A stretch of DNA of 64,000 bases from Nicotiana tabacum (Eukaryota; Streptophyta; Magnoliopsida; Solanales; Solanaceae): assembly GCF_000715075.1 (NCBI RefSeq), contig NC_134087.1:190929276-190993275 (forward strand), written 5' to 3'. This document shows positions 605 to 51,961 of this stretch, piece by piece (position 1 is the first letter of the stretch; every line of letters begins with the position of its first letter). Under the pieces are notes generated by a model, which saw only the letters and a program-made list of their open reading frames with translations, searched no databases and was not told the origin of the DNA. Both the position numbers and the translations under genes were made by a program.

Positions 605-675
605 GAACTACACGTGACCTGATTCCTTTATAGCCAAGGATATGTAGGCAGCCCAAATACCAGGGCTCGGTCACA
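605..675 (+). other. Structured motif, pre-PPT type (element D)
   Basis: Outer stem CTACA (608-612) pairs with TGTAG (643-647). An inner hairpin pairs TCCTT with AAGGA. A second hairpin pairs AGCCC (650-654) with GGGCT (663-667). GTGACC (614-619) is complementary to GGTCAC (669-674) and crosses the outer stem, as in a pseudoknot. Eleven related copies lie elsewhere in the window. The pairing is read from sequence; a function in the element RNA is inference. Confidence 0.6.
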
Positions 676-773
676 TTTCCCTTTTCTCTTAAGTTTTGGT
701 CTCTTTAAATAAGGGTCGGGTCAAAAAACATGTCTAGTCGTTCTTTGTCTGAAAACTCTTTACGTTTCCAGTC

Positions 774-786
774 AAAGAGGGGCAGC
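774..786 (+). other. Polypurine tract of element D
   Basis: AAAGAGGGGCAGC lies immediately before the TGTAGACATG start of the LTR. This is the expected plus-strand primer of an LTR retrotransposon, and the same core is found before LTR2 and LTR3. Confidence 0.8.
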
Positions 787-1500
787 TGTAGACATGTGAT
801 TTTTGACCTTCCCCAAAATTTTTATATTTTAGCACGTAAATATTTAATTTAGGCCTAATATATCTATTTCAACTCATTTTAACTCTTTTATTTTATTTTC
901 TTACAAGAAAAATAAAAATTACAAACAAGTATTTTAGTTTATGTACTTTTCATAAAAAATAATTTTAAAAAAATAGTACCATATTTTTATCTTTATATAA
1001 TTTCGAAAACACAAAAATAGTTTATATTTAGTTTAATTAATTAGGATTAGCTTTGGTATTGTGCAATATTTCTATCTTATTTTAAAATGCATTATGTAGT
1101 ATTTCAGATTATGAAAAAAAAAAAAATATATATTGCATCTGCATTTTGGATTTTATTTTACATTTTTAGATTAATTAAGTAAGTTGTTGTTGAAAAAATA
1201 GAAAAAGATCATAAAAAATAGTCATGTTACATTTTACTCTTTAATTTTCAAATTTTGGCAATTTTCTTTTAATTTGGTTTTTAATTAGTTGTAATAATTA
1301 TTAGGGTTAATTAATTTAATTGTCTAAGATAATTTGGGGATAAAAATTAATTTAGGTTTTATTTAAAAAAAAAATAAAAAAAGAGTCTTACCTAACTAAT
1401 TAGGAAGCTTCGATATTGGTTGGGTAAAACTAACACTAATGAAAATTAAATAATAACAATAACTAGTGGATAATTAAAGAAGTTAAAAGTATAATTTGTA

Positions 1501-1540
1501 ATGGAAGATGCACTAATTTGATGCCTATTTAGAGATTAGA
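1501..1540 (+). promoter_or_regulatory. Candidate LTR core promoter (element D)
   Basis: A TATTTAGAGA box follows a block (ATGGAAGATGCACTAA) that is kept in LTR2 and LTR3 just before their TATTTAAAAG boxes. Conservation within otherwise diverged LTRs suggests a core promoter. No transcript start can be shown from sequence. Confidence 0.35.
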
Positions 1541-1617
1541 GAGCTGGAGAAAGAGGAAGGGGGAAGTTCAAAAGATAGAGAGGAAAAACATATGGCTTCT
1601 TCTTAATGGAGACATGG

Positions 1618-1693
1618 GGTATACACTCGATATACAGTCAGTATACATTCTATATACACTAGAGATACTCTCGATATACACTGAATATACACG
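1618..1693 (+). repeat. Short TATACA-type tandem repeats
   Basis: Imperfect units such as CGATATACA and AGTATACATT repeat seven to eight times. They are open on both strands only because of the repeat, and no protein is suggested. Confidence 0.6.
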
Positions 1694-3255: not shown

Positions 3256-5119
3256 AAGGTTCATGGAAAAATATGCGAAAATTGATTTTGAATTTGATAA
3301 GTGAAGGACTGGTTGAATCAGAAATCATGTAGGTGTCTAATTATATAAAAAATCAAAATTTCCTCTTGTTGAATCAGTTTCAATACTTCTAGCCTGGTAT
3401 ACAAAGTTGAGTTTGCTCTGGGTGGAGTGATAGTTATTTCATAAAACAAATGGTATGCATATCAACTAAAGTTTCTCCCAACTTTACACGTAAACCATTT
3501 TGCAAGTTTTAAACACATACAATTGGTCTCAAGCATAGGAAGAGAACAAACAATTTATGAATATGGTGATCAAGCTTTAGGCACCTAATTAAATCAAGGG
3601 TACTGTTTTCGCGGTGTGGTTGTGATATTTAATTTCAAATTAGTTTTAATTACGTATCTCCTTAATTCATCTAGTCGAATAGTTTTGAGGCGTGCCATTC
3701 ACACATTTGAATCATATAACTTATGGCCATCATTTGATGAATCTTAATTCTTTGGAAATCGAGGCGCGCCACTTAGCGAATTCCCATGGCCCTCGTATTA
3801 ACGTAGATATATAATAAATATTCGTAGAGAAACCTTTAAGGCCGTTTAAAATATTATCGTGATTGTGGGCACGTCCGCGTGACACGATTACGATTTCTTT
3901 AAAAATAAATCAGAGTATACGTTCGCATAACTTCAGCTAAACTTTCATAATAATAGAGCATCGTTAATCGTGGACGAAATAATTATATAGTATCCCTAAG
4001 TCATAAATCGGTTAATTTTTTTTCTAATCATTCTTGTGAATAAACCATAAACTATAATAAATTTTCTTTATAAGATTATAGTAAGTTTCTTTTACATAAA
4101 GAAAAGTTTTTTTTTCTCTGAATAAACGTTTATAATTATTAACTCCCTAGCCATGAAAGTTGGAAATTTTTAAGTGTTAATTTGGTAGGAATATTTTATT
4201 TTTTTTTAAAAAAGGGGAGAAGAAAGATTATGTGCTTAAGATATATAATTCATAAAGCATTTTAGGTAGTTTGTTTAGAGTTTTGTTTTAATATCAAAAG
4301 ACTATAAAATTTCATTTTTTTTGTTTTGCTCAGTTTTTTATATTAGAAATTTTTTTTGCTTTGTGTGGTAATATTTTGTTTTCTGTTAACATAGTTCTTA
4401 AGAATGCAAGCAGTTAATTTTTTGAAATTTTAATCCTAAAATGCGAGAATGAGGAAAGCTCACTGTTGATCCATGAAAATCTTGCTTTCACATATTTACA
4501 TCAAAACCAAATTGATAGTATGCTTTTAGGTATGACCTTAATAAATCAATCATTGTGATTGTATACATGTTCACGTGACATAATTACGATTTTCAAAAAT
4601 AAATTAAGGTACGCGTCCGCGCGACTTTGACTAAGTTTTTTTCAAAAATAAACTAAGTGTTGGGAATTGTGTACACGTACGCGTGACATGACTCTTGACG
4701 CGCCAAACTACACGAGTATACGTATGCGTAACTCGATAATTCTTCAAGTACGAGTAAATCACGTAATTAAAAACGGTAAAGGTAAAATGCATGTAGTTTC
4801 TAAACACGTAATTAAATAATTTAAGCCAAGTATAAATTGTTAAGTGACCGTGCTAGAACCACAAAATTCGGGAGTGCCTAACACCTTCTCCCGGGTTAAC
4901 AGAATTCCTTATCCGGATTTCTGGTTCGCGGACTGTATTACAGAGTCAACCTTTGCTCGATTCGGGATTTTAAACTGGTGACTTGGGACACCTTAAATCT
5001 CCCAAGTGGCGACTCTGAATTTAATGTAAATAATCCCGTTTCGATTGTCCTTTAATTGGAAAAACTCCCTTATATTTTATACCCTTCTCCGGGGTGTAAA
5101 GTAAAAAGGAGGTGTGACA
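3256..5119 (+). mobile_element. 5' LTR of element A, 3' portion only
   Basis: Closely similar to 20652-22623 of LTR2 and ending in TGTGACA just before the primer site. The first ~2.6 kb is separated from it by element D. It lacks the SINE of LTR2 (the empty target is at 4391-4405) and has one copy of the AGAAAGATTATGTGCT block near 4223 that is doubled in LTR2 and LTR3. Confidence 0.85.
4981..5018 (+). promoter_or_regulatory. U5 hairpin and PBS-like repeat (A)
   Basis: ACTTGGGA (4981-4988) and TCCCAAGT (5000-5007) form a perfect 8-bp stem. Right at its foot TGGCGACTCTGA (5007-5018) repeats the first 11 bases of the primer site consensus exactly 117 bases before it. The same pair stands at 22484-22522 and, with more changes, before the C primer site and in LTR D (3117-3155). 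Confidence 0.55.
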
Positions 5120-5123
5120 GCTC

Positions 5124-5141
5124 TAGCGACTCTGCTGGGGA
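5124..5141 (+). other. Primer binding site, element A
   Basis: TAGCGACTCTGCTGGGGA starts four bases after the LTR end. B and C have TGGCGACTCTGCTGGGGA, so A has one G-to-A change. The complement ends in CCA and fits a plant tRNA starting GACTCTG, most likely a tRNA-Arg as reported for Ogre elements; the exact isoacceptor was not checked. Confidence 0.75.
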
Positions 5142-6241
5142 ACGAACCCAGAATCTCTGGTTCAGGGTTCAGAATTCGAGCTTGTTAATGTGATTTTACT
5201 TGGCTTTATTTATTGTTAATATTACTGTATTTTATGAACCTTTGTGCTAATTGCTGTTTATTTACCGTTTTGATATTGGTGAACTATATATAAATTGATA
5301 CGAAACCCTTCCTCTTTCTGAGTCTTCTGAATTTAAGGTGCACACGTGCGCGTGGCCCACCCTTCTGTTAGAAGTCATACCAAATAGAACGAAATTGGGC
5401 AAAGTAACTAGGCCGGGTAGACTTTCGTGCTCCCGGTACGTTGCCCCCACTTAGGCTCAAGCTGTCCGCTTGGGTAAGCTAGGTCTAGAACAGTATACCC
5501 CAGGTTTTACACTTAGAATAACTCAGCTTCATGCCGGATCCCTAGTAGGAACGTTTGTTTGCATCATGTGCATTTGACTTCGGAGACTCAACACAGGGGT
5601 TGGGTCTGTCTAGGACAGGTGTACCCGAAATGAAAAGACCATCCTGATGCATCTTACTTGCTACTTGTGCATTCATTTGTTTCGGATTTGCATGTTGTGA
5701 CCAGCTTATAGGAAAAAGTTAGAAAAGGAAAATCAATGTGAGAACCGAGAAAGAAAATTGGCTGTTTTTCGAAAAAAAAAATTCCAAAATATTTTGAAAT
5801 TCTGTCGAATTTTGAAAGAAGGAAATGTTGTGTTTCTTTTAAAAAATAGTTTTATTATTACGAAATACGTAAGTTTGATTCTCGCCGGATGTGAGATACG
5901 TAGGCAACCCATATCGGGCCCAACTATTAAAAAATAATAAATAATAAATAGATAATAAGTAATTTAAAATGCGGGTACATAAATTTTTTTGTGATGTCAT
6001 AAGTAAGGCGATGCCATTCTTGTCCAAAATATGCGGAATGTCCCCAAAAGGGCATCAGAATACTGTTTTTGCAAGAACAACTGCCTTTGGTCTTTTTTTT
6101 TTGTTAAAAATTTTTTTTTTTTTTGCTGGTTAGCAAACACAGCCTTTTAATCTTCTTCATAAAAGTGTTTTTTTTAATATTTTTTTTCAAAATGAGTCTT
6201 GATTTTGGTTTTTTAAAATTAAAATCACTCACAGGTACAAA
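5142..6241 (+). other. Untranslated leader of element A
   Basis: Non-coding stretch between primer site and ORF1. It holds a good plant 5' splice site (CTTGG then GTAAGCTAGG, GT at 5474), one structured motif (5861-5930), and near its end a U-rich stretch leading to CACTCACAG (AG at 6233-6234), a possible 3' splice site just before ORF1. All are kept in B and C. Confidence 0.6.
5861..5930 (+). other. Structured motif, leader type (A)
   Basis: TACGTA (5866-5871) pairs with TACGTA (5897-5902); B and C have the full CTACGTA with TACGTAG. The inner hairpin pairs CTCGC with GTGAG (one G-U), the second hairpin CCC with GGG, and AGTT after the first arm can pair with AACT near 5922. Confidence 0.55.
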
Positions 6242-8315
6242 ATAAGCACCGTCCAAAACCCACCGTTCATAGATGCAAATGATTTTCTATTTCGACTTCA
6301 GATGTGGTGGCGTGAGTTAGGAGGAGATGGTCAAAAATGGGTCATTAAGTATTTGGGAGCTCTCACAGATATTATGAAAGTTAAACCACGCGATAATTTG
6401 ATTACGGCACTAGTGACTTTTTGGGACCCTGTTCACAATGTCTTTCGCTTCTCTGATTTCGAACTTACTCCCACATTAGAAGAAATAACTGGATATTCCG
6501 GTTTTGACAGAGATTTGAGAAACCAAAATCTTATTTTCCCAAAGGCTCCCTCGGTACACCGATTCTTTGGTCTTCTGAATATCAGTAATCAAATCAGAAA
6601 AAAGCAACGTTGTCGAAGGGTGTTGTTCTTTCAACTTCCTATATTCAAGGTTCAGAAAGCCGGATGGATTTGAAATTCATGAAAAGGGCCTTACTAACAA
6701 ATAAAACAAGGACACCTGGCAGATTCACCGACGCTTCACTTTCATGGTAGCTTTTCTAGGAATCATGGTCTTCCCAAACAAAGAGCGGACGATTGATATT
6801 CGCATTGCCAGAGTCGTACAAGTCCACTCTACCAAAGAACATCACACACTTGCCCCGATCATTCTCTCAGACATTTATCGGGCGTTGACTTTGTGTAAAT
6901 CCGGGCCAAAATTCTTCGAAGGTTGCAATATTTTGTTGCAAATGTGGTTGACAGAACATCTCCGACATCACCCCAAGTTCATGTAGTATGGTCCAAGCAA
7001 GGACGATTTCATCGAGAGTTATGAAGAAAGAATAAAAGACTATAAATCTCCAAAAGGGGTGGAAGCCTGAATATCCCATTTTAGATCTTTAATGGCGAGT
7101 CAAATTGAGTGGACTTTAGGATGGCTCCCGGTAAGAGAAGTGATACATATGTCAACCTTGAAGAGTTATTTGTTGCTGTTGGGTTTAAGAAGCGTCCAGC
7201 CGTATGCACCACAGAGAGTTCTAAGACAGCTAGGGAGATACCAAGTGGTGCCTGAGGATGAATATTTGAGTGTGCATGTGATTGAGCTACACCCCGAAGC
7301 CCCTCTCCCTGTGGCTTTAATCCAGCAGATTTGGAATGGTTGTCGATACTTGAAAGATGATACCCAAATTCCAGATCCTGCAAAAGGTGAGATAAATCCG
7401 GGTTATGCTAGGTGGTTTGAGAAAAGATCCCGCGTGGATGATGCACCAGAACCTGATCCTAGAAGGCCCATAGAAAGACCGTATGTTCAAGCCTTTGATG
7501 ACAAAATCCAAGAACGGTTGGCTTGGGGAGAAAAGGAAAAGGGGTACAAAGCAACTATTCATGCCTTAGAAGAAAGCCTGAGGAACCTCAATTTGGAGAG
7601 AGACTTACAAGCACAAGAAGCAGAAGGTGAAAAGAAGAGTCTGATTAGCGAGAATAAAACTCTCCGCGCTCAGTTTCAACAGATGAAGAAAGCCTCTGAA
7701 GCACTAGTGAGAAGTTGGAAAGATCAGAAAATCATTGCCAATCTGATGGAAAAAATGCAAGATTATGACTCCCTCTTGACAAAGACTGATAAGGCGTTAG
7801 ACAAAGCTAAGGAAAAAATCATACAGTTAAATGAGGAGGCCAAATCTAGTAAGGAACGCCAAGTAATGAGATGTGAAGAAGAAATGGCTCAATTCAACAG
7901 AGAGAAGGACCATTGGATACATTTAGAAGCTCAACTCCATGCACAGTTGGAAGAAATAAGAAGGTACAATAGAGAACATCAGCACGCAGATATTGATAGG
8001 GAGAGAGCACATGCAAGACTCGATCAGGCCAGACTTTGAGCTCAATTGGAGTCAGCTTTAGATCGCGAAGACCACATAAGAGATATAGCCACCACTCGCC
8101 AACAGCGATTGCAAAACCAAGACCAAAATCTCCAAGATTTCAGAGCACAAATCCATGATTTGGCCGTTTATACTTCTCAAAGTTACGTAAAATGCCAAGG
8201 GATGGATTATGAAAGGTTTCTAGATCATGCACCTACTTTTGCCCATCATCTTGCAATAGAGTTAGAGAGGATGTACCGTACACTAGGAGGTCAGCCGGGT
8301 CAAGCCCCACCGTGA
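6242..8315 (+). pseudogene. ORF1 of element A (broken)
   Basis: Counterpart of the extra ORF that Tat/Ogre elements carry upstream of gag; its function is unknown. The N-terminal half has WWRELGG and a FELTPTLEE segment typical of plant mobile-domain/DUF7745-like proteins (family name from memory). The C-terminal part (7550-8100) is a charged coiled coil. Breaks in A: start ATG is ATA (6242), one extra A in the A-run near 6600 shifts the frame, and stops lie at 6700 (TAA), 6984 (TAG), about 7068 (TGA) and 8037 (TGA). The 6984 and 7068 stops are shared with B but not C. Confidence 0.8.
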
Positions 8316-8886
8316 GCAGATGTTCCAGTGATTAAAAGCAAAAGATTGTGGAGTGAAGCGTAGTCATAGTTGTTGGAACTTTTCATATAATAGTCATGTT
8401 TTAGTTTAAGTCCATGTTGAGTCTTTTAAACCATTTTCTTAAAATGTTGTCAAAATGTAATGTCATTTCTGTCTTTGTATTGTTTCGTTTGTTAAAATAA
8501 ATAAGAGTATTAATAATTGTTTCCACCAGAACTACGCTCGGTCTGATTCATGCAGGGTCATGATACGTAGGCAATCTTCATAAGATTCGACCACGACCAA
8601 AAGAAAAGAATAAAATGAAAAGGGGAGGGAAATAAATGATAGGCGTGAGTGACAATAAAAGGGAAAGGTCAGGAAAAGCTGGGATGATACGAGCAACCGA
8701 GCAAATACATGATAGAAAATGGTTAATTGCCTAGGTGCATTGCATCCCAACGTGTAATTGCATATGTGTTAAACTCTAAAAACTAACAAGTTTGTTGTTT
8801 TCCAGAATTCAAGCAGTTAGTTTATCTAGAGCATACTGGCACATTATCATTACAAAACCAGATCAAAAGGACCAATACCAGAAATC
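8316..8886 (+). other. Spacer between ORF1 and gag (A)
   Basis: No ORF. It contains a structured motif at 8529-8598 and, 80 bases before the gag start, TTTGTTGTTTTCCAG (AG at 8804-8805), a textbook plant 3' splice site kept in B (26301) and C (43850). This suggests gag may be reached by splicing from an upstream donor. Confidence 0.55.
8529..8598 (+). other. Structured motif, ORF1-gag type (A)
   Basis: CTACG (8532-8536) pairs with CGTAG (8566-8570). Inner hairpin TCATG with CATGA. Second hairpin AATCTT with AAGATT. GGTC (8540-8543) is complementary to GACC (8589-8592), the reverse of the GACC/GGTC order in the 3' types, so the crossing helix is kept with swapped strands. Confidence 0.6.
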
Positions 8887-11800
8887 ATGTCTATCCCGGA
8901 TGTCGACACAAGTGTTGAGGTAGAGGAGTTGGACGTCAGTAAAATGAAAGAGGAGATGCTCAAACTTAAGCAACAGATGGCCGAGATGTATCAGGCCTGG
9001 TCTAAAGGACAATCACCCCCAGCTTACCCTGCTAACCCTGCTTCCACCCCACCACCGGCTCAGGCTCAGGATCATCCTGCCATCGATCCAAGCTTTCCCA
9101 TTTACCAACATTACCATGGCACTACTTCTCATATGCCACAAGCTCCACTACCAAAATCAATTCCATACCCCCCTCCGCCAGTCACCCCTGTCTTTGTGGC
9201 ATCTCCACCAGCTGCACTTCATAGATCCTCGAGTGAGCCTATGTTCCAAGCTCAGGACAACCAGTACTACCCCCCGGAGCCCACCTTCAAAGCTCCCAAA
9301 ACCTACCCTTATAATCCACGTTCTGATCTCCCGAGAGAAGCTGAGAGACCAGCCAAAAATCCCGAACATGAGGAGATATTCAGGAAAGTTAAGAGCTTAG
9401 AACAATCATTCAGAGACATACGGGGGTTAGGAGGGCAAGTCAGCATTGCCTACAAGGACCTACGTCTGTTCCCAAATGTGCAGTTACCGGCAGGTTTCAA
9501 GATGCCCAAGTTTGATATATACAATGGGCACGACAATCCAGTAGCCCACTTGAGGGGTTTTTGCAACAAAATGAGGGGAGCTGGAGGAAAAGATGAATTG
9601 TTAATGGATTACTTCAGTCAGAGTTTGAGTGGATCAGCATTGGAATGGTACACCCGCCAAGACCATAGGAGATGGTACACATGGGATGATCTGGGGCAAG
9701 CATTTGCTTGTCACTTCCAATACAATCTTGAGATCATTCCAGATCGACTGTCCTTGACTAAACTTGAGAAGAAGCACAGTGAAAGCTTCAGAGAATATAG
9801 TTTCCAATGGAGGGAGCAAACAGCAAGAGTAGATCCCTAAATGAAGGAAAGTGAGATGGTAGATTACTTCCTACAGGGTTTGGAACCTACTTACTTTGGC
9901 CATTTGGTCTCAGCTGTGGGAAAGTCATTCAACGTAGTAAAGATGGGGGGCATGGTAGAAGAAGGCCTCAAGTCGAATAAAATCATGAGCTATTCGGCTA
10001 TCAAAGCGACTACTCAGGCTATTCAGGGTGGCATAGGAGGGATGGGAAGAAGAAAAGAGAGGAAGCAGCAATGGTTGATTCAGGAACTTGGTCCGGATCC
10101 AGAGGTTCACCTTACCACTACAATCAACCTCGACCCCACCAACAAACTTATCACCACAATCAACCCCAACACTACTATCCCCCTACCAGAACCTCATTTT
10201 TTCGTCCACCATGCACAAGCATACAACCAACCTCCTGCCCACGCTCAATGGAGTGATCTTGTCCTACCAAATACTTATCCACATCCACGAGCCTACCAAA
10301 ACACTCCCGGACCAAGTTTCAGGCCTAGTCAAGCACTCAAGGGTGAAAGGTTGCCGAAAAAGAAAACCTTTACTCCGTTGGGAGAATCATACACCAGTCT
10401 GTTCCAGAGGCTAAATCAGCTAGATATGCTAAGGCCGATAAAGTCCAAACTGCCAAATCCTCCTCCAAAGAATCTTGACTATACTGTCAGCTGTGGGTAT
10501 TGTTCTGGTACTCCGGGTCATGATACAGAAAAGTGCTGGCACTTGAAAAGTGCGATACATGAGCTTATTGATACCAATAGAATCGAAGTTCAAGCTCCCA
10601 AAGCATACAATATCAACAGAAATCTGATGCCAGCCCATCAGGAGGCAAATATGATCGAAATAGTGCATGCAGAGGGGGAACCCAAAAAGCCATCACAGAC
10701 CGTCATGATGATTCGGTCCAGTGGAGTCAAGACAGATAAACAATCAGCATATGAGAAGTTGGTGCTCAAGTAGAGCAAAAAGAGTGTTGAGCCATCTATG
10801 GCAGTAGAGAAGGGGTCTTTAAGCAGAGTTGCCACGAAACAGGAAGGGGTAAAGGTGATTGTACCAGGAGCGGCCAGGAAACCCATTATAATCATGGAAG
10901 GAGCCCGCCCAGATCGGGTTATTATCAAGCCAGTAAGCCAATTACCAATAATCAACAACAAGGCTATTCCATGGAATTACGAACGGGTAACGATGATGTA
11001 CAAAGGGAAGGAAGTCAAAGAAGAAATCTGTGAAGTACAGGATTTAACTCGCTCGGGAAGGTGTTTTATTTCCGAGGAGTTAAGAAGAGCTAAAAATAAT
11101 CCAGCACTAATAAAGAAAGCCGTAACTGAAGAAGAAGTAGAAGAATTCTTGAGGAAAATGAAGCTGCATGACTACTCTATCGTGGAACAATTAAGAAAGA
11201 CGCCTGCTCAAATTTCCCTATTATCATTATTGATCCACTCGGACGAGCACCGTCAAGCCTTAATGAAGATCTTGAATGAGGCGCACGTTCCTGATAAGAT
11301 CTCCATGAACCACTTGGAAAAAATAGCCAACAAAATCTTCGAAGTAAACAAAGTCACATTTTTCGATGATGAATTGCCTGTAGAAGGTACTGAGCACAAC
11401 AAAGCTCTTTACCTCACATTAAAATGTGAGAACTCTGTGGTGACCCGGGTATTGGTTGACAACGGATCAAGCGCAAACATCTGTCCTCTCTCCACTCTAA
11501 GCAAGTTGAAAATAGAAGATGAGAGGATCCATAAGAATAGTATTTGCGTGCGGGGATATGACGGTGGAGGTAAGGATTCAGTTGGGGACATAGTACTGGA
11601 GCTGACGATAGGGCCAGTCGAGTTCACAATGGAGTTTCAGGTGCTGGATATAGCTGTTTCCTATAACTTACTATTGGGTCGACCCTGGATCCACGCCGCT
11701 AAAGGAGTGCCATCAACACTACACCAGGTAGTCAAATTTGAATGGGATAGATAAGAAATAGTTGTGCATGGGGAAGACAGTTTATGTGCTCGCAGTAATG

Positions 11801-12369: not shown

Positions 12370-12544
12370 TTTATTTTGATTTTTCTTCAGTTTGTTTGGG
12401 TTATTCCAGGGTTGTAATCCAGATTTTTATCTTTCAGTCTGTTTGAAGTGTGCAAACCTTGTTATCTTTTTTCATTCAATGAAATGCAATTTCCCTTTCT
12501 TTATCATTCCTGATAGTTTTTCTTTTCTTTTCTTTTCTGTATAG
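12366..12544 (+). other. Candidate intron between protease and RT (A), 179 bp
   Basis: Starts GTAGTT right inside the Trp codon before the protease stop and ends with a long T/C tract and CTGTATAG. Removing it deletes the stop and joins the gag-pro frame to the RT frame exactly. Ogre elements are known to have an intron at this place. In A the acceptor is TAG; in B and C it is CAG. Confidence 0.65.
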
Positions 12545-15056
12545 TTCTTTTTACGCTGGCTCTAGTGATATGGCATGCATAAGGAATCCTCAGCCCAGTC
12601 TTAAAAATCAACCTAATTCTGAAATAATAGTTCAAGAAGTAGATTGTGATTACGAATCAGAATACGATGAGGATGAGGCCTTCGAAGAGATTAGTAAGGA
12701 GTTAATTCACTTCGAAGAAAAACCCAAACCCAACATGAATGATACAAAAGTCGTCAATTTAGGAGACACAGATAATATCCGAGAGACTAAAATAAGTGTC
12801 CACCTCGAGCCAAATATCCAGGAAGAGTTAATTAAAGCACTCATCGAATTCAAAGATGTTTTTGCATGGTCATATGACGACATGTCGGGTTTGAGCACTA
12901 ATTTAGTGGTCCACAAATTGCCCACTGATCCAATGGTTCCTCCCGTCAAGCAAAAGTTGAGGAAATTCAAAACTTATATGAGTGTGAAAATTAAAGAAGA
13001 AATCACCAAACAGTTGGATGCAAAGGTCATTCGGGTCACTCGATATCCTATTTGGTTGGCTAATGTCGTGCCTGTGCCAAAAAAAGATGGCAAGATTAGA
13101 ATATGCGTCGATTACCGCAATCTCAACAAAGAAAGTCCGATGGATAACTTCCCATTACCCAATATCCATATTTTGATCGATAATTGTACCAAACATGAGA
13201 TAGGATCTTTTGTGGATTGCTATGCTGGGTATCATCAGATTCTAATGGATGAAGAAGATGCAGAAAAGACGGCATTCATCACGCCGTGGGGAACTTATTG
13301 CTACTGGGTAATGCCATTTGGTTTGAAGAACGCCGGGGCAACTTACATGAGAGCAATGACTCCGGTGTTTCATGATATGATACATAAGGAGATTGAGGCA
13401 GGGCATCACTATCCTATTACGGCTCAGCTTCGGTTTTATTGCACCAACAATATGGCTGAGTATGAAGCCTGTATTTTGGGTCTAAGGCTAGCTGCAGACA
13501 AGGATATCCAGGAAGTCTTGGTCTTGAGAGACTCGGATCTTCTGGTACATCAAATTCAAGGAGAATGGGAAACACGAGATTTGAAACTCATACCGTACCG
13601 ACAATGTTTGCATGATCTTTGTCAACGATTTTGATCAGTGGAGTTCAAGCATATTCCAAGGGTCCATAAGGAGGTCGCCGATGCTTTGACTACCCTGACA
13701 TGAATGTTGCACCATCCGGACAAAGCTTATGTTGATCCTCTGCATATTCAAGTCCGAGATCAGCATGCCTACTATAACATGATTGAAGAAGAACTTGATG
13801 GCGAACCATGGTTCCACGATATCAAGGAGTATATCAGAATGGGGATATATCTAGTGCAAGCCACGAGGGATCAAAAGAGAATGATTCGACGGTTGGCAAA
13901 TGGATTCTTCTTAAGTGGAGGAGTTTTGTGTAAGAGAACACCAGACCTTGGATTATTAAGATGCATAGATGCCAGACAAGCTACGACTGTCATGTCCGAA
14001 GTACATTCAGGAGTCTGCGGACCACATATGAGCGGATATGTGTTGGCAAAGAAAATTCTCCAAGCAGGATATTATTGGCTTACCATGGAGCGAGATTGTA
14101 TCAATTTTGTGCGCAAATGTCATCAGTGCCAGATACACGGAGATTTGATTCATTCTCCACCATTAGAATTGTACACAATGTCTGCACCATGGCCCTTCGT
14201 TGCTTGGGGCATGAATGTCATTGGACCAATTGAGCTAGCAGCATCCAATGGGCACAGGTTCATTCTGGTAGCAATTGATTATTTCACCAAGTGGGTTGAG
14301 GCCAAAACTTTCAAATCAGTGACCAAGAAAGCAGTGGTCGATTTTGTTCATTCAAATATCATTTGTCGATTCGGAATCCTAAAGGTGATCATCACAGATA
14401 ATGGTGCTAATCTTAACAGTAACTTGATGGAAGAGGTATTTCAACAGTTTAAGATTACACATCACAATTCTATCCCATATCATCCCAAGGCGAATGGAGC
14501 AGTCGAGGCAGCCAACAAAAACATAAAGAAGATATTTTGGAAAATGATAGAAGGTTCGAGGCAATACCACAAAAAATTACCATTTGCGTTGTTGGGATAT
14601 CACACTACTGTCCGTACTTCGGTAGGTGCAACTCCTTATTTGTTGGTATATGGCACTGAAGCAGTAATACCTGCAGAAGTTGAAATCCCTTCCCTACGGA
14701 TTGTCGCTGAGGCTAAGATTGATGATAATGAGTGGGTCAAAACCCGTTTGGAGCAATTGAACTTGATTGATGAAAAAAGATTGGCAGCAGTATGTCATGG
14801 CCAGTTATATCAAAAGAGAATGGCAAGAGCATACAACAAAAGGGTGCGTCCCCGAATGTTTGAAGTGGGTCATCAAGTGCTGAAACGTATCCTTCTACAT
14901 CAGGTTGAAGCAAAAGACAAGTTCGCCCCAAATTGGAAAGGGCCATTCATTGTCACCAGAGTATTGTCCAATGGTGCTTTATGTTTGACAAATATCGAAG
15001 GAAAATGCATAGACATGGCTATCAATTCTGATGTAGTAAAGAGATATTATGTATGA
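12545..15056 (+). pseudogene. pol: RT-RNase H-integrase of element A (broken, catalytic core deleted)
   Basis: Begins with the acidic spacer before RT. RT blocks VDYRNLNK, DCYAGYHQI and MPFGLKNAGATY are present, but at 13398 the reading runs straight from HKEIE into the archaeal-type RNase H (NMAEYEA). Compared with B, 966 bp (322 codons, in frame) are missing, including YVDD, the RT thumb and the first RNase H. Integrase has the HHCC finger (about 14004-14130), but its first catalytic Asp is Asn (AAT 14214-14216); TDNGA and VEAANK (Asp, Glu) are kept. Stops at 13632 and about 13700 interrupt it. ATG 12570 is the first in-frame start. Confidence 0.85.
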
Positions 15057-15275: not shown

Positions 15276-15299
15276 ATAGCAACAAGGAAATTCAGGTGT

Positions 15300-15359
15300 G
15301 AACTACGTTTGACCTGATTCCTGTTAAGGATACGTAGGCAGCCTCATAGCTCGGTCATA
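15300..15359 (+). other. Structured motif, post-integrase type (A)
   Basis: CTACGT (15303-15308) pairs with ACGTAG (15332-15337). Inner hairpin TCCT (15319-15322) with AGGA (15327-15330). TGACC (15310-15314) pairs across with GGTCA (15353-15357). The second hairpin is weak here (AGC/GCT) but perfect in C (AGCC/GGCT). Confidence 0.65.
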
Positions 15360-17835: not shown

Positions 17836-17905
17836 GAACTACATTGACCTGATTCCTTTATAGCCAAGGATATGTAGGAAACCTTTGAAGAAGAGGTTCG
17901 GTCAA
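17836..17905 (+). other. Structured motif, pre-PPT type (A)
   Basis: CTACAT (17839-17844) pairs with ATGTAG (17872-17877), a changed pair relative to CTACGT/ACGTAG elsewhere. Inner hairpin TCCTT/AAGGA, second hairpin AACCT (17880-17884)/AGGTT (17894-17898), crossing helix TGACC (17845-17849)/GGTCA (17900-17904). Confidence 0.65.
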
Positions 17906-18005
17906 ATCTTTCAAAAAAATGCTTCCCACGAAGTGTTCAAACAGGCAAAAATCGCTCGTATCCGCTCACTTTATCTTTGTACAAAAACTCTTCGTGTTTC
18001 CGGAC

Positions 18006-18018
18006 AAAGAGGGGCAGC
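18006..18018 (+). other. Polypurine tract before LTR2
   Basis: AAAGAGGGGCAGC directly before the LTR start, matching the tract of D and, with one change, that of B. Confidence 0.8.
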
Positions 18019-18561
18019 TTTGAGCACATGATTTTTGCCTTATACGAATTACTCCAAAATAATTCCCAAAATTAGGTCTTGGCTCTAATTATGTGTTATT
18101 TTAGGAATTATTGTGTGATTTTCCTGATTGTTTGCATATATTTGTATGCATGTTTAATTTTATTAATGCATTAAAAATACAAAAATATAGCATTTGCATT
18201 TATGATTTGATCTTACATTTTTGGATTAATTAATAATTAGGAGTTTTACAAAAATGAAAAAAAGAAGAAGAAAATATATAATAACACATTTTTAATTAAA
18301 TTTTGTGCTTTTCTTTTAATTTAGTATTTAATTATTCATGATAATTATAATTTAGAGAGGATTAGTATTTTTAATATTAATTTTGGTGTTATAACTTAAT
18401 TTAGGATTTTAATTTTGAAAAAATAAAACAAGGAAAAGAAGGAATTAATTTGAAAAGTAAAAAAATGAAAATCAAAGTTTGGGCTATTCTTTAAACCCAA
18501 ATTTCCAGGCCCAAAAACACGCCCCATACCCGGTCCAAACTTCCAGTCTCTAAGACCATCA

Positions 18562-22645: not shown

Positions 22646-23741
22646 ACAAACCCAGAATCTCTGGTTCAGGGTTCAGAATTCGAGCTTGTTAATGTGATTT
22701 TACTTGGCTTTATTTATTGTTAATATTACTGTATTTTATGAACCTTTGTGCTAATTGCTGTTTATTTACCGTTTTGATATTGGTGAACTATATATAAATT
22801 CATACGAAACCCTTCCTCTTTCTGAGTCTTCTGAATTTATGGTGCACACGTGCGCGTGGCCCACCCTTCTGTTAGAAGTCATACCAAATTGAACAAAATT
22901 GGGCCAAGTAACTAGGTCGAGTAGACTTTCGTGCTCCCAGTATGTTGCCCCCACTTCTGCTCAAGCTGTCCGCTTGGGTAAGCCAGGTCTAGAACAGTAT
23001 ACCCCAGGTTTTACACTTAGAATAACTTAGCTTTATGCCGGATCCCTAGTAGGAACGTTTGTTTGCATCATGTGCATTAGACTTCGGAGACTCAACACAG
23101 TGGTTGGGTCTGTCTAGGACAGGTGTGCCCGAAATGAAAAGACCATCCTGATGCATCTTACTTGCTACTTGTGCATTCATTTGTTTCGGATTTGCATGTT
23201 GACCAGCTTATAGGAAAAAGTTAGAAAAGGAAAACCAATGTGAGAACCGAGAAAGAAAATTGGTTGTTTTTCGAAAAAAAAAAAATTCCAAAATATTTTG
23301 AAATTCTGTCGAAATTTTGAAAGAAGGAAATGTTGTGTTTCTTTTAAAAAATAGTTTTATTATTACGAACTACGTAAGTTTGATTCTCGCCGGATGTGAG
23401 ATACGTAGGCAACCCACATCGGGCCCAACTATTAAAAAATAAATAATAAATAGATAATAAGTAATTTAAAATGTGGGTACATAAATGTCCTTGTGATGTC
23501 ATAAGTAAGGCGATGTCATTCTTGTCCAAAATATGCGGAATGTCCCAAAAAAGGCGCCGGAAGGCTGTTTTTGCAAGAACAACCGCCTTTGGTCGTTTTT
23601 TTTTCAGAAAAAAAAAAAACTTTTGCCGGTTAGCAAACACAGCCTTTAAATCTTCTTCATCAAAGTATTTTTTTAATATTTTATTTTTAAAATGAGTCTT
23701 GATTTTGGTTTTTTTAAATTAAAATCACTCACAGGTACAAA
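22646..23741 (+). other. Untranslated leader of element B
   Basis: Non-coding, very similar to the A leader. It keeps the 5' splice site candidate (GT at 22978) and the CACTCACAG acceptor candidate just before the ORF1 ATG. Confidence 0.6.
23366..23433 (+). other. Structured motif, leader type (B)
   Basis: Full outer stem CTACGTA with TACGTAG; inner hairpin CTCGC/GTGAG; second hairpin CCC/GGG; AGTT may pair with AACT downstream. Confidence 0.6.
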
Positions 23742-26025: not shown

Positions 26026-26095
26026 GAACTATGCTCAGTCTGATTCATGCAGGGTCATGATACGTAGGCAATCTTCATAAGATTCGACCACGACC
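26026..26095 (+). other. Structured motif, ORF1-gag type (B)
   Basis: As at 8529, with CTATG facing CGTAG (one G-U pair) and AGTC in place of GGTC, so the crossing helix is weaker. The spacer 25813-26383 has no ORF; a 3' splice site candidate ends at 26302. Confidence 0.5.
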
Positions 26096-33355: not shown

Positions 33356-33379
33356 ATAGCAACAAGGAAATTCAGGTGT

Positions 33380-33439
33380 GAACTACGCTTGACCTGATTC
33401 CTGTTAAGGATACGTAGGCAGCCTCACGACTCGGTCATA
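33380..33439 (+). other. Structured motif, post-integrase type (B)
   Basis: CTACG/CGTAG outer stem, TCCT/AGGA hairpin, TGACC/GGTCA crossing helix; second hairpin weakened (GACT for GGCT). Confidence 0.6.
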
Positions 33440-35892: not shown

Positions 35893-35967
35893 CGAACTAC
35901 ATTGACATGATTCCTTTATAGCCAAGGATATGTAGGAAACCTTTGAAGCAGAGGTTCGGTCAAATCT
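35893..35967 (+). other. Structured motif, pre-PPT type (B)
   Basis: CTACAT/ATGTAG, TCCTT/AAGGA and AACCT/AGGTT all paired. TGACA replaces TGACC, leaving four pairs with GGTCAA. Confidence 0.6.
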
Positions 35968-37850: not shown

Positions 37851-37860
37851 GAGTTGAACA
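37851..37860 (+). promoter_or_regulatory. Candidate TATA box of LTR3
   Basis: CTATTTAAAA in the same conserved block as at 19791. Confidence 0.4.
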
Positions 37861-39945: not shown

Positions 39946-40318
39946 CGAGTAAATCACACAATTAAAAACGGTAAAGGTAAAATGCATGTAGTTTCTAAAC
40001 ACGTAATTAAATAATTTAAGCAAAGTATAAATTGTTAAGCGACCGTGCTAGAACCACGGAATTCGGGAGTGCCTAACACCATCTCCCGGGTCAACAGAAT
40101 TCCTTATCCGGATTTCTGGTTCGCGGACTGTATTACAGAGTCAACCGTTCCTCGATTCGGAATTTTAAACCGGTGATTTGGGACACCCTAAATCTCTCAA
40201 GTGGCGACTCTGAATTTAATGTAAATAATCTCGTTCCGATTGTCCTTTAATTGGAAAAACTCCCTTATATTTTATACCCTTCTCCGGGGTGTAAAGTAAA
40301 AAGAAGGTGTGACAGCTC

Positions 40319-40336
40319 TGGCGACTCTGCTGGGGA
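40319..40336 (+). other. Primer binding site, element C
   Basis: TGGCGACTCTGCTGGGGA. The PBS-like TGGCGACTCTGA is again 117 bases upstream (40202-40213), behind a decayed hairpin. Confidence 0.8.
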
Positions 40337-41302
40337 ACGAACCCAGAATCTCTTGTTCAGGGTTCAGAATTTGAGCTTGTTAATGTGATTTACTTGGCTT
40401 TGTTTATTGTTAATATCACTGTATTTTATAAACCTTTGTGCTAATTGCTGTTTATTTACCGTTTTGATATTGGTGAACTATATATAAATTGATACGAAAC
40501 CCTTCCTATTTCTGAGTCATACCGTGCGCGTGACCCACCCTTCTGTTAGAAGTCATACCAAATAGAAAAAAACTGGGCCAAGTAACTAGACCGGGTAGAC
40601 TTTCGTGCTCCCGGTACGTTGCCCCCTTTTCGGCTCAAGCTGTCCGCTTGGGTAAGCTAGGTCTAGAACAGTATACCCCAGGTTTTACACTTAGAATAAC
40701 TCAGCTTCATGCCGGATCCCTAGTAGGAACTTTTGTTTGCATGATGTGCATTTGACTTCGGATTTGCATGTTGACCAGCTTATAGGAAAAAGTTAGAAAA
40801 GGAAAATCAATGTGAGAACCGAGAAAGAAAATTGGTTGTTTTTCGGAAAAAAATAATAATTTCCAAAATATTTTGAAATTCTGTCGAAATTTTGAAAGAA
40901 GAAAATGTTGTGTTTCTTTTAAAAAATTGTTTTATTATTACGAACTACGTAAGTTTGATTCTCGCCGGATGTGAGATACGTAGGCAACCCACATCGGGCC
41001 CAACTATTAAACAAAAATAAAAAAATAATAAATAGATAATAAGTAATTTAAAATGTGGGTACATAAATGTCATTGTGATGTCATAAGTAAGGCGATGTCA
41101 TTCTTGTCCAAAATATGCGGAATGTCCCCAAAAGGGCGCCAGAAGGCTGTTTTTGCAAGAACAGCCGCTTTTGGTCGTTTTTTTTTGCTGGTTATCAAAC
41201 AAAATCTTTAAATCTTCTTCATCAAAGTGTTTTTTTAATATTTTTTTTCAAAATGAGTCTTGATTTTGGTTTTTTTAAATTAAAATCACTCACAGGTACA
41301 AA
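40337..41302 (+). other. Untranslated leader of element C
   Basis: Shorter than in A and B by small deletions, for example after 40755. It keeps the donor candidate (GT at 40652), a leader-type structured motif (40941-41008) and the acceptor candidate before ORF1. Confidence 0.6.
40941..41008 (+). other. Structured motif, leader type (C)
   Basis: CTACGTA/TACGTAG stem with the CTCGC/GTGAG hairpin, identical in layout to B. Confidence 0.6.
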
Positions 41303-43363: not shown

Positions 43364-43576
43364 GCAGATGTTCCAGTGATTAAAAGCAAAAGATTGTGGA
43401 GTGAAGCGTAGTCATAGTTGTTGGAACTTTTCATATAATAGTCATGTTTTAGTTTACGTCCATGTTGAGTCTTTTAAACCATTTTCTTAAAGTGTTGTCC
43501 AAATGTAATGTCATTTCTGTCTTTGTATTGTTTCGTTTGTTAAAATAAATAAGAGTATTAATAATTGTTTCCACCA

Positions 43577-43645
43577 GAACTACGCTCGGTCTGATTCATG
43601 CAGGGTCATATACGTAAGAAATCTTCATAAGATTCAACCACGACC
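43577..43645 (+). other. Structured motif, ORF1-gag type (C)
   Basis: Decayed copy: CTACG faces CGTAA and bases are lost in the hairpin; the AATCTT/AAGATT hairpin is kept. The spacer 43364-43932 has no ORF and a 3' splice site candidate ends at 43851. Confidence 0.45.
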
Positions 43646-43932
43646 AAAAGAAAAGAATAAAATGAAAAGGGGAGGGAAATAAAAGATAGGCATGAGTGAC
43701 AATAAAAGGGAAAGGTCAGGAAAAGCTGGGATGACACGAGAAACTGAGCAATACATGATAGAAAATGGTTAATTGCCTAGGTGCATTGCATCCCAACCTG
43801 TAATTGCATATGTGTTAAACTCTAAAAACTAACAAGTTTGTTGTTTTCCAGAATTCAAGCAGTTAGTTTATCTAGAGCATACTGGCACATTATCATTACC
43901 AAACCAGATCAAAAGGACCAATACCAGAAATC

Positions 43933-48015: not shown

Positions 48016-48196
48016 TTTATTTTGATTTTCCTTCAGTTTGTTTGGGTTATTCTAGGGTTGTAATCCAGATTTTTATCTTTCAGTCTGTTTGAAGTGTGCA
48101 AACCTTGTTATCTTTCATCATTCAATGAAATGCAATTTCCCTTTCTTTATCATTCCTGATAGTTTTTCTTTTGTTTTTCTTTTCTTTTCTGTACAG
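48012..48196 (+). other. Candidate intron between protease and RT (C), 185 bp
   Basis: Donor GTAGTT, acceptor CTGTACAG after a T/C tract; removing it joins the two frames as in A and B. Confidence 0.7.
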
Positions 48197-51100
48197 TTCT
48201 TTTTACGCTGGCTCTAGTGATATAGCATGCATAAGCAATCCTCAGCCCAGTCTTAAAAATCAATCTAATTCCGAAATAATAGTTCAAGAAGTAGATTGTG
48301 ATTACGAATCAGAATACGATGAGGATGAGGCCTTCAAAGAGATTAGTATGGAGTTAATTCACTTCGAAGAAAAACCCAAACCCAACCTGAATGATACAGA
48401 AGTCGTCAATTTAGGAGACACAGATAATATTCGAGAGACTAAAATAAGTGTCCACCTCGAGCCAAAGATCTGGGAAGAGTTAATTAAAGCACTCATCGAA
48501 TTCAAAGATGTTTTTGCATGGTCATATGACGACATGCCGGGTTTGAGCACTGATTTAGCGGTCCACAAATTGCCCACTGATTCAAGGGTTCCTCCCGTCA
48601 AGCAAAAGTTGAGGAAATTCAAAACTGATATGAGTGTGAAAATTAAAGAAGAAATCACCAAACAGTTGGATGCAAAGGTCATTCGGGTCACTCAATATCC
48701 TGTTTGATTGGCTAATGTCGTGCCTGTGCCAAAGAACGACGGCAAGATCAGAGTATGCGTCGATTACCGCAATCTCAACAAAGCAAGTCCGAAGGATAAC
48801 TTCCCATTACCCAATATCCATATTTTGATCGATAATTTTTCCAAGCATGAGATAGGATCTTTTGTGGATTACTATGCCGGGTATCATCAGATTCTAATGG
48901 ATGAAGAAGATGCAGAAAAGACGACATTCATCACGCCGTGGGGAATTTATTGCTACCGGGTAATGCCATTTGGTTTGAAGAACGCCGGGCAACTTACATG
49001 AGAGCAATGACTACGGTGTTTCATGATATAATACATAAGGAGATTGAGGTATACGTGGATGATGTAATCATAAAATCAAAGCATTAGGCTGACCACGTTG
49101 GGGATTTGAGGAAAATCTTCTTGAAACTTCGCAGGTACAACCTCAAGCTTAACCCTACCAAGTGCGTATTTGGTGTTCATCCGGAAAGCTGTTAGGATTC
49201 ATAGTCAGCTGGTGAGGCATCGAGTTGGACCCATCAAAGATCAGAGCCATCCAAGAATTGCCACCTCCGAGGAACAAGACTGAAGTGATGAGTTTGTTAG
49301 GGAGGTTGAACTACATCCGTAGGTTTATTGCTCAGCTCACGACAACTTGCGAGCCTATTTTCAAATTGCTGAAGAAGGATGTTGTGGTCAAGTGGACTGA
49401 TGAGTGTCAAGAAGCATTTGATAAGATAAAAGGATTCTTGTCAAACCCACCTGTACTGGTTCCGCCAGAACCAGGAAGACCTTTGATTCTTTACTTGACA
49501 GTCTTGGAAAATTAATTTGGTTGTGTACTGGGGCAGCATGACATCACCGGCAGAAAGGAACAGTCCATCTACTATCTTATCAAGAAGTTCACGGCTTATG
49601 AGGTTAAGTACACTCATCTGGAAAGGACATCTTGTGCCCTAACTTGGGTGGCTCAGAAATTGAAATATTATTTGTCATCCTACACTACTTACCTCATTTC
49701 GCGTTTGGATCCGTTGAAGTATATCTTTCAAAAGCCTATACCGACAGGGAGACATGCGAAGTGGCAGATATTGCTCACAGAGTTTGACATCATCTATGTC
49801 ACTCGGACTACGATGAAAGCCCAAACATTGGCCGAAAACCCGGTCGATAAAGATTACGAGCCATTGAGAACTTATTTTCCCGATGAAGAAGTGATGCATA
49901 TCGATGAACTGGAGCAAATTAAAAAAACAGGCTGGAAACTCTTCTTTGAATGGACTGCCAACATGAAAGGAGTCGGAATAGGAGCTGTGCTTATTTTTGA
50001 AACAGGGCATCACTATCCTGTTATGGCTCAGCTTCGGTTTTATTGCACCAACAATATGGCTGAGTATGAAGCCTGTATTTTGGGTCTAAGGCTAGCTGCA
50101 GACATGGATATCCAGGAAGTCTTGGTCTTGGGAGACTCGGATCTTCTGGTACATCAAATTCAATGAGAATGGGAAACGCGAGATTTGAAACTCATACCGT
50201 ACCGACAATGTTTACATGATCTTTGTCAACGGTTTCGATTAGTGAAGTTCAAGCATATTCCAAGGGTCCATAATGAGGTCGTCGATGCTTTGGCTACCCT
50301 GGCATCAATGTTGCACCATCCGAACAAAGCTTATGTCGATCCACTGCATATTCAATCCAAGATCAGCATGCTTACTGTAACATGCTTGAAGAAGAACTTG
50401 ATGGCGAACCATGGTTCTACGATATCAAAGAGTACATCAGAATGGGAATATATCCAGTGCAAGCCACGGGGGATCAAAAGAGAATGATTCGACGGTTGGC
50501 AAATGGATTCTTCTTAAGTAGAAGAGTTTTGTATAAGAGAACACCAGACCTTGGATTATTAAGATACATAGATGCCAGACAAGCTACGGCTGTCATGTCC
50601 GAAGTACATTCAGGAGTCTTCGGACCACATATGAGCGGATATGTGTTGGCAAAGAAAATTCTCCGAGCAGGCTATTATTGGCTTACCATGGAGCGAGATT
50701 GTATCAATTTTGTGCGCAAATGCCATCAGTGCCAGATACACGGAGATTTGATTCATTCTCCACCATCAGAATTGCACACAATGTCTGCACCATGGCCCTT
50801 CGTTGCTTGGGGCATGGATGTCATTGGACCAATTGACCAGCAGCATCCAACGGGCACAGGTTCATTCTGGTAGCAATTGATTATTTCACCAAGTGGGTTG
50901 AGGCCAAAACTTTCAAATCAGTGACCAAGAAAGCAGTGGTCGATTTTGTTCACTCAAATATCATTTGTAGATTCGGAATCCCAAAGGTGATCGTCACATA
51001 TAATGGTGCCAATCTTAACAGTAACTTGATGGAAGAGGTATGTCAACAGTTTAAGATTACACATCGCAATTCTACCCCATATCGTCCCAAGGCGAATGGA

Positions 51101-51659
51101 GCAGTCGAGGCAGCCAACAAAAACATAAAGAAGATACTTCAGAAAATGATAGAAGGTTCGAGGCAATGGCACGAAAAATTACCATTTGTGTTGTTGGGAT
51201 ATCGCACTACTGTCCGTACTTCGGTAGGTGCAACTCCTTATTTGTTGGTATATGGCACTGAAGCAGTAATACCTGTAGAAGTTGAAATCTCTTCCATTCA
51301 GATTGTCGCTAAGGCTAAGATTAATGATGATGAGTGGGTCAAAACCCATTTGGAGCAATTGAACTTGATTGACGAAAAAAGATTGGCAGCAATATGTCAT
51401 GGCCAGTTATATCAAAAGAGAATGGCAAGAGCATACAACAAAAGGGTGCATCCCCGAAAGTTTGAAGTGGGTCAGCAAGTGCTGAAACGTATCCTTCCAC
51501 ATCAGGTTGAAGCAAAAAGGCAAGTTCGTCCCAAATTGGAAAGATCCATTTATTGTCACCAGAGTATTGTCCAATGGTGCTTTATGTTTGACAAATATCG
51601 AAGGAAAATGCATAGACATGACTATCAATTCTGATGCAGTAAAGAGATATTATGTATGA
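48197..51659 (+). pseudogene. pol: RT-RNase H-archaeal RNase H-integrase of element C (broken)
   Basis: RT with VDYRNLNK and, after a frameshift, YVDDVIIK (near 49050). Degenerate RNase H, archaeal-type RNase H (FFEWTA in place of FFDGA, so its first Asp is also lost), integrase with HHCC and GMDVIGP but the second catalytic Asp is Tyr (TAT 50999-51001, VTYNGA). Breaks: TGA 48705, one-base loss near 48990, TAG near 49085, TAA 49513, TGA 50164, losses near 50357 and 50838, insertion near 51520. Confidence 0.85.
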
Positions 51660-51816
51660 TTTCTTTGGTATAATTGTTGATTGTTTGTATTTGACATTAT
51701 TTCGAAGATTGAAATGATGAAGGCAATTTGTTCTGCTATCTAAACACTTTACCCTTTGTTTCCCCTTTTTTGAGCTTTATCTATTTCTTTCATACCCCTC
51801 TTTTGGAATCAATAAC

Positions 51817-51880
51817 GAAAAAGAGAGAAAAGAAAGAAAAAGAGAAAAGAGAAAAGAAAAGAAGTGAAAAGAGAAAGTAT
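51817..51880 (+). other. Internal polypurine stretch (C)
   Basis: Same A/G-only tract as at 15214 and 33294. Confidence 0.5.
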
Positions 51881-51901
51881 AGCAACAAGGAAATTCAGGT
51901 G

Positions 51902-51961
51902 TGAACTACGTTTGACCTGATTCCTGTTAAGGATACGTAGGCAGCCTCACGGCTCGGTCAT
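51902..51961 (+). other. Structured motif, post-integrase type (C)
   Basis: Best preserved copy of this type: CTACGT/ACGTAG, TCCT/AGGA, AGCC/GGCT and TGACC/GGTCA all pair exactly. Confidence 0.7.

Follow-up and report, generated by a model that had tools for sequence, protein, structure and literature searches.

A covarying pseudoknot module repeated in the untranslated gaps of Ogre/Tat-type retrotransposons of Nicotiana tabacum

Background

Ogre/Tat retrotransposons form much of many plant genomes, and a 64-kb stretch of the 4.0-Gb Nicotiana tabacum assembly (GCF_000715075.1, contig NC_134087.1, positions 190,929,276 to 190,993,275; hereafter the window) raises the question of whether a short motif, repeated in three tandem units of such an element, is a selected RNA structure and what it would do for the element. 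A first-pass annotation of the window, made from the sequence alone, had described twelve copies of the motif as a pseudoknot whose loops each contain a hairpin. The analysis of these copies and of others from the same genome makes it almost certain that the motif, hereafter the module, is a selected RNA structure consisting of a helix P1, two hairpins (P2 and P3) and a helix that crosses P1 (the crossing helix), and that it acts in the sense RNA of the element. It is tentatively proposed, at somewhat less than even confidence, that the module is a repeated docking site for a trans-acting factor that handles the full-length RNA.

Being small, covarying and regularly placed in very large elements, the module offers a concrete candidate for a cis-acting signal and a bait for whichever protein of the element or the host would recognise it, and it could also serve to find and sort Ogre/Tat elements. 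If it were true that the module acts by itself, it would represent a new ribozyme or exonuclease block.

Organisation of the module

The module measures 58-77 nt and occupies untranslated gaps of Ogre/Tat-type RNA, in the sense orientation. Its 5' half comprises an unpaired GAA, the first strand of P1 (CUACR/YGUAG), 0-4 nt, the 5' strand of a crossing helix of 4-6 bp and an unpaired UGAU. The 3' half begins with the hairpin P2, which opens with a U-A and then a C-G pair; a single U separates P2 from the second strand of P1, which is generally followed by GCA. Then come the hairpin P3, in most copies a single C, and finally the second strand of the crossing helix. At its shortest, P2 has a stem of 3 bp capped by a GAAA tetraloop (TCC-GAAA-GGA; copies L069, L082 and L108-L127, with AAAA in two of L108-L127), and such copies are suited as a minimal construct for structural work.

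In every type of copy in the window, the 4-6 nt before TGATTC pair with the strand right after P3, as in GTGACC/GGTCAC (copy 605), TTGACC/GGTCAA (17836), TGACC/GGTCA (51903), GGTC/GACC (8529) and AGTT/AACT (23367). The crossing strands of one type pair over a greater length with each other than with those of another type, except in type D, whose 5' strand pairs over one more base with the 3' part of 17836 and over the same length with that of 605. Shuffle values for the crossing helix in the window range from 0.0005 to 0.086 by type and, therefore, the window makes this helix suggestive, while the copies from the whole genome are decisive.

Occurrence in the source assembly

Three patterns were searched in the assembly: CTGATTC-N(4-16)-GGATACGTAGGCA gave 8,513 matches, GAACTAC-N(3-9)-TTGATTC-N(6-28)-TACGTAGG gave 18,068 and CTACG-N(1-6)-GGTCTGATTC-N(6-26)-ACGTAGG gave 13,267, and the backward-read versions, used as a control, gave 0 matches each. 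The second pattern excludes the other two by the letter before TGATTC, and the sets of 8,513 and 13,267 matches may overlap. Copies for comparison were drawn from the approximately 100 matches listed per pattern, all on one contig, as a sample of 28 copies, a sample of twenty 10-kb regions around listed places (51 covariance-model matches, of which 49 were kept and two at 14 bits dropped) and a sample of 60 short, hand-picked copies. A total of 128 distinct copies was collected. None of the search patterns contained P3 or the 3' crossing strand; the covariance model, however, does use the sequence of those columns.

Covariation of the crossing helix

The two strands of the crossing helix change together. 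Among 73 distinct copies, those with a 5' GACC carry a 3' GGTC in 36 of 39 cases and a 3' GACC in none (0/39). All 20 copies picked for a 5' GACT carry AGTC (20/20) and none GGTC (0/20), and one other GACT copy among the matches listed (L091) likewise has AGTC; copies picked for a 5' GGTC carry GACC in 19/20 cases, the remaining one having AACC. Since many of their members are near-copies, the GACT and GGTC sets do not amount to 20 separate events. These three classes, read as GACC/GGUC, GACU/AGUC and GGUC/GACC in the RNA, bear out the earlier claim that pairing is kept while the sequence changes and, coming from genome copies beyond the window, support the predicted pseudoknot with its two looped-in hairpins; a lack of covariation, which the first-pass annotation had named among the results that would speak against it, was looked for and not found.

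When the 128 distinct copies among 149 were classified, 97 had four Watson-Crick crossing pairs, 28 had three and 3 had fewer. The commoner fully paired classes are GACC/GGTC (36), GGTC/GACC (23), GACT/AGTC (17), GGTT/AACC (8) and AGTT/AACT (5), and the rarer ones AACC/GGTT (3), GATC/GATC (3), GGCC/GGCC (1) and GAGC/GCTC (1). The rare classes may be due to chance, because the best place in the 3' part was taken; within AACC/GGTT, L054 and L058 fall within the P3 arm and L087 extends to TTAACC/GGTTAA. The 28 three-pair copies have a G-U in 9 cases, an A-C in 7 and another combination in 12, the G-U and A-C counts being near-equal as a sign of the RNA strand. A leader class with 5' AACC and 3' CCGGTC (L073, L078 and L086) forms three crossing pairs only.

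A permutation test with Watson-Crick pairs on the 52 non-redundant of 109 copies gave 30 full partners, against 15.0 after permutation (0/2000 as high); with the GACC class set aside, the figure was 15/35, compared with 3.9 (0/2000 as high). An earlier permutation anchored on the hairpins (four full pairs in 52% of own and 39% of permuted combinations) lost power through wrongly assigned P3 hairpins and the overrepresentation of GACC copies, and is superseded by the class tables and the non-redundant test.

Helices P1 to P3 and the unpaired letters

P1 and P2 were examined in an alignment of 51 rows, the two 14-bit rows included, in which they are paired in 97.0% of the cells; sliding by 1-3 columns lowers this to 22-53%. 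As this structure guided the fitting of the alignment, the figure is biased in its favour. At the fifth position of P1, 30 rows have a G-C pair and 15 an A-U pair, and cells of P1 and P2 changed on both sides number 34 compared with 12.0 in shuffles (0/500 as high). Among the matches listed, hairpins beside a 5' GGTC have ATG/CAT, ACG/CGT and GTG/CAC at one place, and P3 varies likewise among copies, as judged by eye and uncounted. Letters left unpaired are also conserved: in 29 copies found through the model and not through a pattern, GAA precedes P1 in 28/29, UGAU precedes P2 in 25/29, U follows P2 in 28/29 and GCA follows P1 in 19/29, while a C stands immediately before the 3' crossing strand in 87/97 fully paired copies.

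Placement and age across element families

All copies within each of the twenty regions have the same orientation (49/49 copies), which is the sense of the element wherever genes are in view. A copy lies 34-398 nt past the end of the integrase in all 14 regions that show that end and 204-370 nt upstream of the extrapolated gag start in 5/5 regions, and the distance from the end of a copy to a polypurine-like tract is 75-108 nt in 14/14 regions (96-98 nt in 9). Each region is centred on one copy; the integrase-linked copy is the centred one in 13/14 regions, while the gag and tract copies are not centred. In some elements a possible fifth copy, of a GGGTC type, lies 702-814 nt upstream of a leader-type copy (paired copies at G000:C1:1644187 and 1645001, 1863551 and 1864253, and 6476258 and 6476968).

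A recognisable gag or pol of the carrier lineage is present in 19/20 regions, some gag pieces having just 27-36% identity, and region L071 gave no gag or pol match at the E-value used. L071 and L077 each have two upstream copies approximately 980 nt apart and no match to open reading frame 1 (ORF1), the spacing being too close for an ORF1 of the length seen in the window; therefore, the module seems independent of ORF1.

In an integrase tree of 31 rows, 11 of them carriers from the source genome, the carriers fall on either side of the deepest division within the Solanaceae integrases included, which suggests that the module probably predates this division. The sister group consists of rosid integrases, those of cotton, legumes and cacao among them. 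One integrase near these plant elements (P0033) stands on a contig of 2,975 bases assigned to Salmonella enterica, the source of which is probably plant DNA within a bacterial assembly.

Comparison with known RNA families

The module is new as an RNA family, nothing in Rfam 15 matching it, although its function may prove to be of a known kind. A match to a known family was looked for and not found, in keeping with the earlier statement that no named family is of this kind: Rfam 15 gave 0 matches in the window at gathering thresholds, a permissive search with copies 605 and 15300 (E-values up to 10) gave sub-threshold matches only, the best at E 1.8 and none to a ribozyme, and ten genome copies searched at E-values up to 1 gave none. 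ARAGORN found 0 tRNAs in the window. Collections of prokaryotic and viral sequences gave 35 and 3 pattern matches, respectively, which were taken as chance, none having the CTAC arm in register, and a match of a longer pattern in a viral contig (L039) was set aside as resembling a tRNA end by eye, its crossing strand being without a partner; integrase searches of the viral contigs found no relative. A literature search, with subscription papers outside its scope, found none describing the module among the titles and abstract starts listed, and a search of 5.39 million texts of the same scope found no occurrence of six core stretches of 12-13 letters (two from the reverse strand). The 9-letter ACGTAGGCA does occur in 78 texts, the 20 among the matches listed being unrelated by title.

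One of the closest likenesses is to the ribozymes of the hepatitis delta virus (HDV) type (HDV, R2 and L1Tc), with which the module shares the strand order, two crossing helices, a hairpin per loop and occurrence in retroelements. Their order P1-P2-P3-P1-P4-P2 corresponds to the order P1-5', crossing-5', hairpin, P1-3', hairpin, crossing-3' found here. However, P1 of HDV-like ribozymes has approximately 7 bp and begins with a G at the cleavage site, whereas P1 of the module has 5-6 bp, starts with a C and is preceded by the conserved GAA; they also have a longer junction before the 3' strand of their P2, with a catalytic C and then purines, whereas the junction before the 3' crossing strand is 1 nt in types A, C and D and three in type B. 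The module further differs in a 4-nt linker before its first hairpin, in its several copies per element and in matching no HDV-like model of Rfam. In view of the start and length of P1, the linker, the junction and the missing model match, it is not filed under HDV ribozymes.

Structured cis-acting RNAs are also known from other elements with long terminal repeats (LTRs), namely the MusD transport element (MTE), the RNA transport element (RTE) of the intracisternal A-particle (IAP) and the constitutive transport element (CTE) of simple retroviruses, which are placed near the 3' LTR. The MTE has pseudoknot and kissing-loop motifs according to PMC12786077. The module differs from these three in its several copies per element, its plant host and its lack of an Rfam match. 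The direct repeats of Rous sarcoma virus are a cis element repeated around retroelement genes, as is the module. In three-stem frameshift pseudoknots a hairpin is inserted at the junction of two crossing helices, whereas the module has a second hairpin in the last loop and its copies in the window lie outside recognised genes.

Proposed function and rival explanations

The element repeats one fold and one set of unpaired letters at four points, namely the leader, the gap before gag, the stretch just after pol and a point approximately 97 nt before the polypurine tract, which could provide repeated docking for one putative trans-acting partner. Candidates for the partner are proteins of the element, such as Gag or the product of ORF1, and RNA-binding factors of the host; by binding at several sites, the partner might single out the full-length RNA for export from the nucleus, for packaging or for protection, by analogy with the export and stability elements of simple retroviruses and of IAP and MusD. 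Since the copies are all in sense and stand at regular places in the 5' and 3' untranslated parts alike, a signal for the RNA as a whole fits better than a role at start sites only.

Several results weigh against this interpretation. Two of five measures for P1 and P2 are not above shuffles, the pairs with change on both sides numbering 3 (2.9 in shuffles) and the further pair types 9 (9.0 in shuffles). The permutation test fails to separate own from foreign tails once G-U pairs are allowed, giving 43/52 against 39.3 (114/2000 as high), and outside the GACC class 28/35 against 25.7 (350/2000 as high). P1 and the crossing helix might alternate, as covariation cannot separate their coexistence from alternation; nested (pseudoknot-free) folding of five copies favours the crossing helix in 3, P1 in 1 and neither clearly in 1. 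Finally, a constant fold at all sites equally fits an RNA acting by itself, as a ribozyme or an exonuclease block. That the module should be such a new self-acting class, self-cleaving or exonuclease-blocking, with tens of thousands of copies in one plant genome and several per retroelement, is considered unlikely.

Equally unlikely is a narrower form of the docking proposal, overlapping with it, in which the module is a packaging or dimerisation signal read by Gag alone; the interval between the primer-binding site and gag is the usual place for such signals and several copies would add up, but the copies near the 3' end share their core with those of the leader. Doubt is greater for an exoribonuclease-resistant RNA (xrRNA), which would halt a 5'-3' exonuclease and shield the downstream pieces of the transcript: the compact pseudoknot, the conserved unpaired letters and the untranslated location would suit it, and xrRNAs are known in tandem use, but the crossing strand lies in a 5' internal loop and not in an apical loop as in the xrRNAs of plant viruses, and Rfam offers no match. 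A shade less probable again is a translation element, acting at ORF1 and gag through internal initiation or reinitiation, or from the 3' side as a cap-independent enhancer. The copies 204-370 nt before gag, in each of the five regions with the gag start in view, and copy B upstream of ORF1 in the window speak for it, and the copies downstream of pol and upstream of the polypurine tract, which are equally regular and stand where no gene is recognised, speak against it.

Slightly lower still is placed a two-state switch, in which the P1 hairpin and a three-way junction formed with the crossing helix would exclude each other and govern, for example, translation or splicing versus packaging. It would agree with the nested folding by type, the A and D copies folded giving the crossing helix and the B copy P1, and with the donor-like hexamer GTAAGT in copy B; however, the linker lengths suit a standard H-type pseudoknot, and the donor score of that copy ranks 185 of the 3475 GT sites in the window, for which reason a splice donor in copy B is retained as a side note only. 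The least probable reading is a new class of self-cleaving ribozymes with the HDV strand order, cutting the RNA between leader, ORF1, gag-pol and the 3' region. The shared strand order, the conserved unpaired letters and the single C that is conserved after P3, ahead of the crossing strand, would accord with such a class, and ribozymes occur in other retroelements, as PMC3774820 reports. It is disfavoured because cutting at four places would harm an RNA that must be reverse-transcribed whole, and a cut approximately 97 nt before the polypurine tract, among several, would destroy the RNA needed for reverse transcription; the length and start of P1, the mostly 1-nt junction and the 4-nt insert are unlike HDV, and the permissive Rfam searches returned no ribozyme.

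The twelve copies in the window

All twelve copies reported earlier are present, with starts within 1 nt of those given, and the quoted strands of P1, P2, P3 and the crossing helix are found in the sequence. The core pattern TGATTC...TAYGTAGG matched 11/12 copies in the window, as against a shuffle mean of 0.05. A covariance model of the twelve copies, which the annotation had suggested, recovers all 12, as it must, at 68-82 bits, the next-best match in the 64 kb scoring 16 bits; this match, at 61147-61186, was rejected as a further copy, the core TGATTC being absent. Because the window holds three tandem units, the twelve copies are not independent and repeat as four positional types, all outside recognised genes and on the forward strand.

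Type A lies approximately 100 nt before the polypurine tract. Its copy at 605..674, within the terminal 3' part of a divergent Ogre-type element, has P1 CTACA/TGTAG, crossing strands GTGACC/GGTCAC and P3 AGCCC/GGGCT, with a polypurine-like tract downstream at 773-787; the copy at 17836..17905 stands before the polypurine tract and the LTR following unit 1, with TTGACC/GGTCAA, and that of unit 2, at 35894..35963, has one crossing pair broken. Type B lies in the leader before ORF1, at 5862..5925 between the primer-binding site and ORF1 of unit 1 (P2 TCTCGC/GTGAGA, crossing AGTT/AACT, one P1 pair broken), at 23367..23430 in unit 2 and at 40942..41005 in unit 3. The annotation had held that this leader type fits least well, which was not upheld: type B fits, with a crossing helix AGTT/AACT formed from the same 4 nt before TGATTC, and three C precede its 3' crossing strand compared with one in the other types.

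Type C occupies the gap between ORF1 and gag, at 8529..8592 in unit 1 (P2 TCATG/CATGA, P3 AATCTT/AAGATT, crossing GGTC/GACC), at 26026..26089 in unit 2, where one crossing pair is broken, and at 43577..43639 in unit 3, where the copy is decayed, with one crossing pair, one P1 pair and one P2 base lost. Type D follows the integrase stop, at 15300..15357 in unit 1 (244 nt past the stop, crossing TGACC/GGTCA), 33380..33437 in unit 2 and 51903..51960 in unit 3; the P3 helix of this type is AGCC/GGCT only in copy 51903 and has one pair broken in copies 15300 and 33380.

The carrier retrotransposon and its neighbours

The three tandem units are approximately 95% identical, are offset by 17.1-18.5 kb and are a Ty3 retrotransposon of the Ogre/Tat type. 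An extra ORF upstream of the Ty3 gag and pol is the mark of Ogre, and the carrier has a Ty3 gag and pol with an additional ORF upstream of gag. The element runs from an LTR end through the primer-binding site, ORF1, gag, reverse transcriptase (RT), integrase, tandem repeats (of 69 nt and 48 nt) and polypurine tract to the next LTR.

For unit 1, on the forward strand, the preceding LTR ends with GTGTGACA at 5112-5119 and is followed, within the feature at 5112..5140, by a stretch that complements the 3' terminus of what we take to be a plant tRNA-Arg. The ORF1 region at 6203..8039 is in pieces and belongs to DUF7745 / plant mobile domain (PMD), with DUF7745 in 6203-6670 and no family match for the piece at 7071-8036; the ORF1 piece of unit 2 at 23925-24482 matches PMD and DUF7745. 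Gag and further open frames occupy 8830..11754, with Retrotrans_gag in the first frame and no family match for the two frames that follow. An RT and RNase H piece (RVT_1, RVT_3) lies at 12483..13634, the integrase (rve, Integrase_H2C2), whose best named relatives are from Nicotiana, Capsicum, Lycium and Solanum, at 13704..15056 and the polypurine tract before the LTR that follows the unit at 18005..18019.

The intron of Ogre lies between protease and RT, and the donor-like GAGGTAAGG at 11570 is the sole intron hint seen in the carrier. Ogre is called intron-containing in PMC12786077. A stretch resembling a branch point and 3' splice site, CTAACAAGTTTGTTGTTTTCCAG, lies at 8783-8805 between module C and gag and is the same in all three units (8783, 26280 and 43829); from this sequence, gag may sit on a spliced RNA. 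Approximately 960 bp inside the RT region are missing from unit 1 (13393-13400) and present in units 2 and 3 and in other copies, and unit 3 has a tandem duplication of approximately 595 bp after the gag start (45421-46611).

The tandem array is flanked on both sides by other elements. Positions 1-3255 are the 3' end of the divergent Ogre-type relative, with its LTR at approximately 788-3255 ending in GTGTGACA at 3248-3255, and this end directly abuts a point that matches the LTR interior of the array. Directly after unit 3, at 53858-64000, lies another, unrelated Ty3 element (gag, RT with RNase H, integrase), in which the covariance model finds zero copies of the module and which is thus a useful negative control; it contains a 61-nt tandem repeat at 61002-61159.

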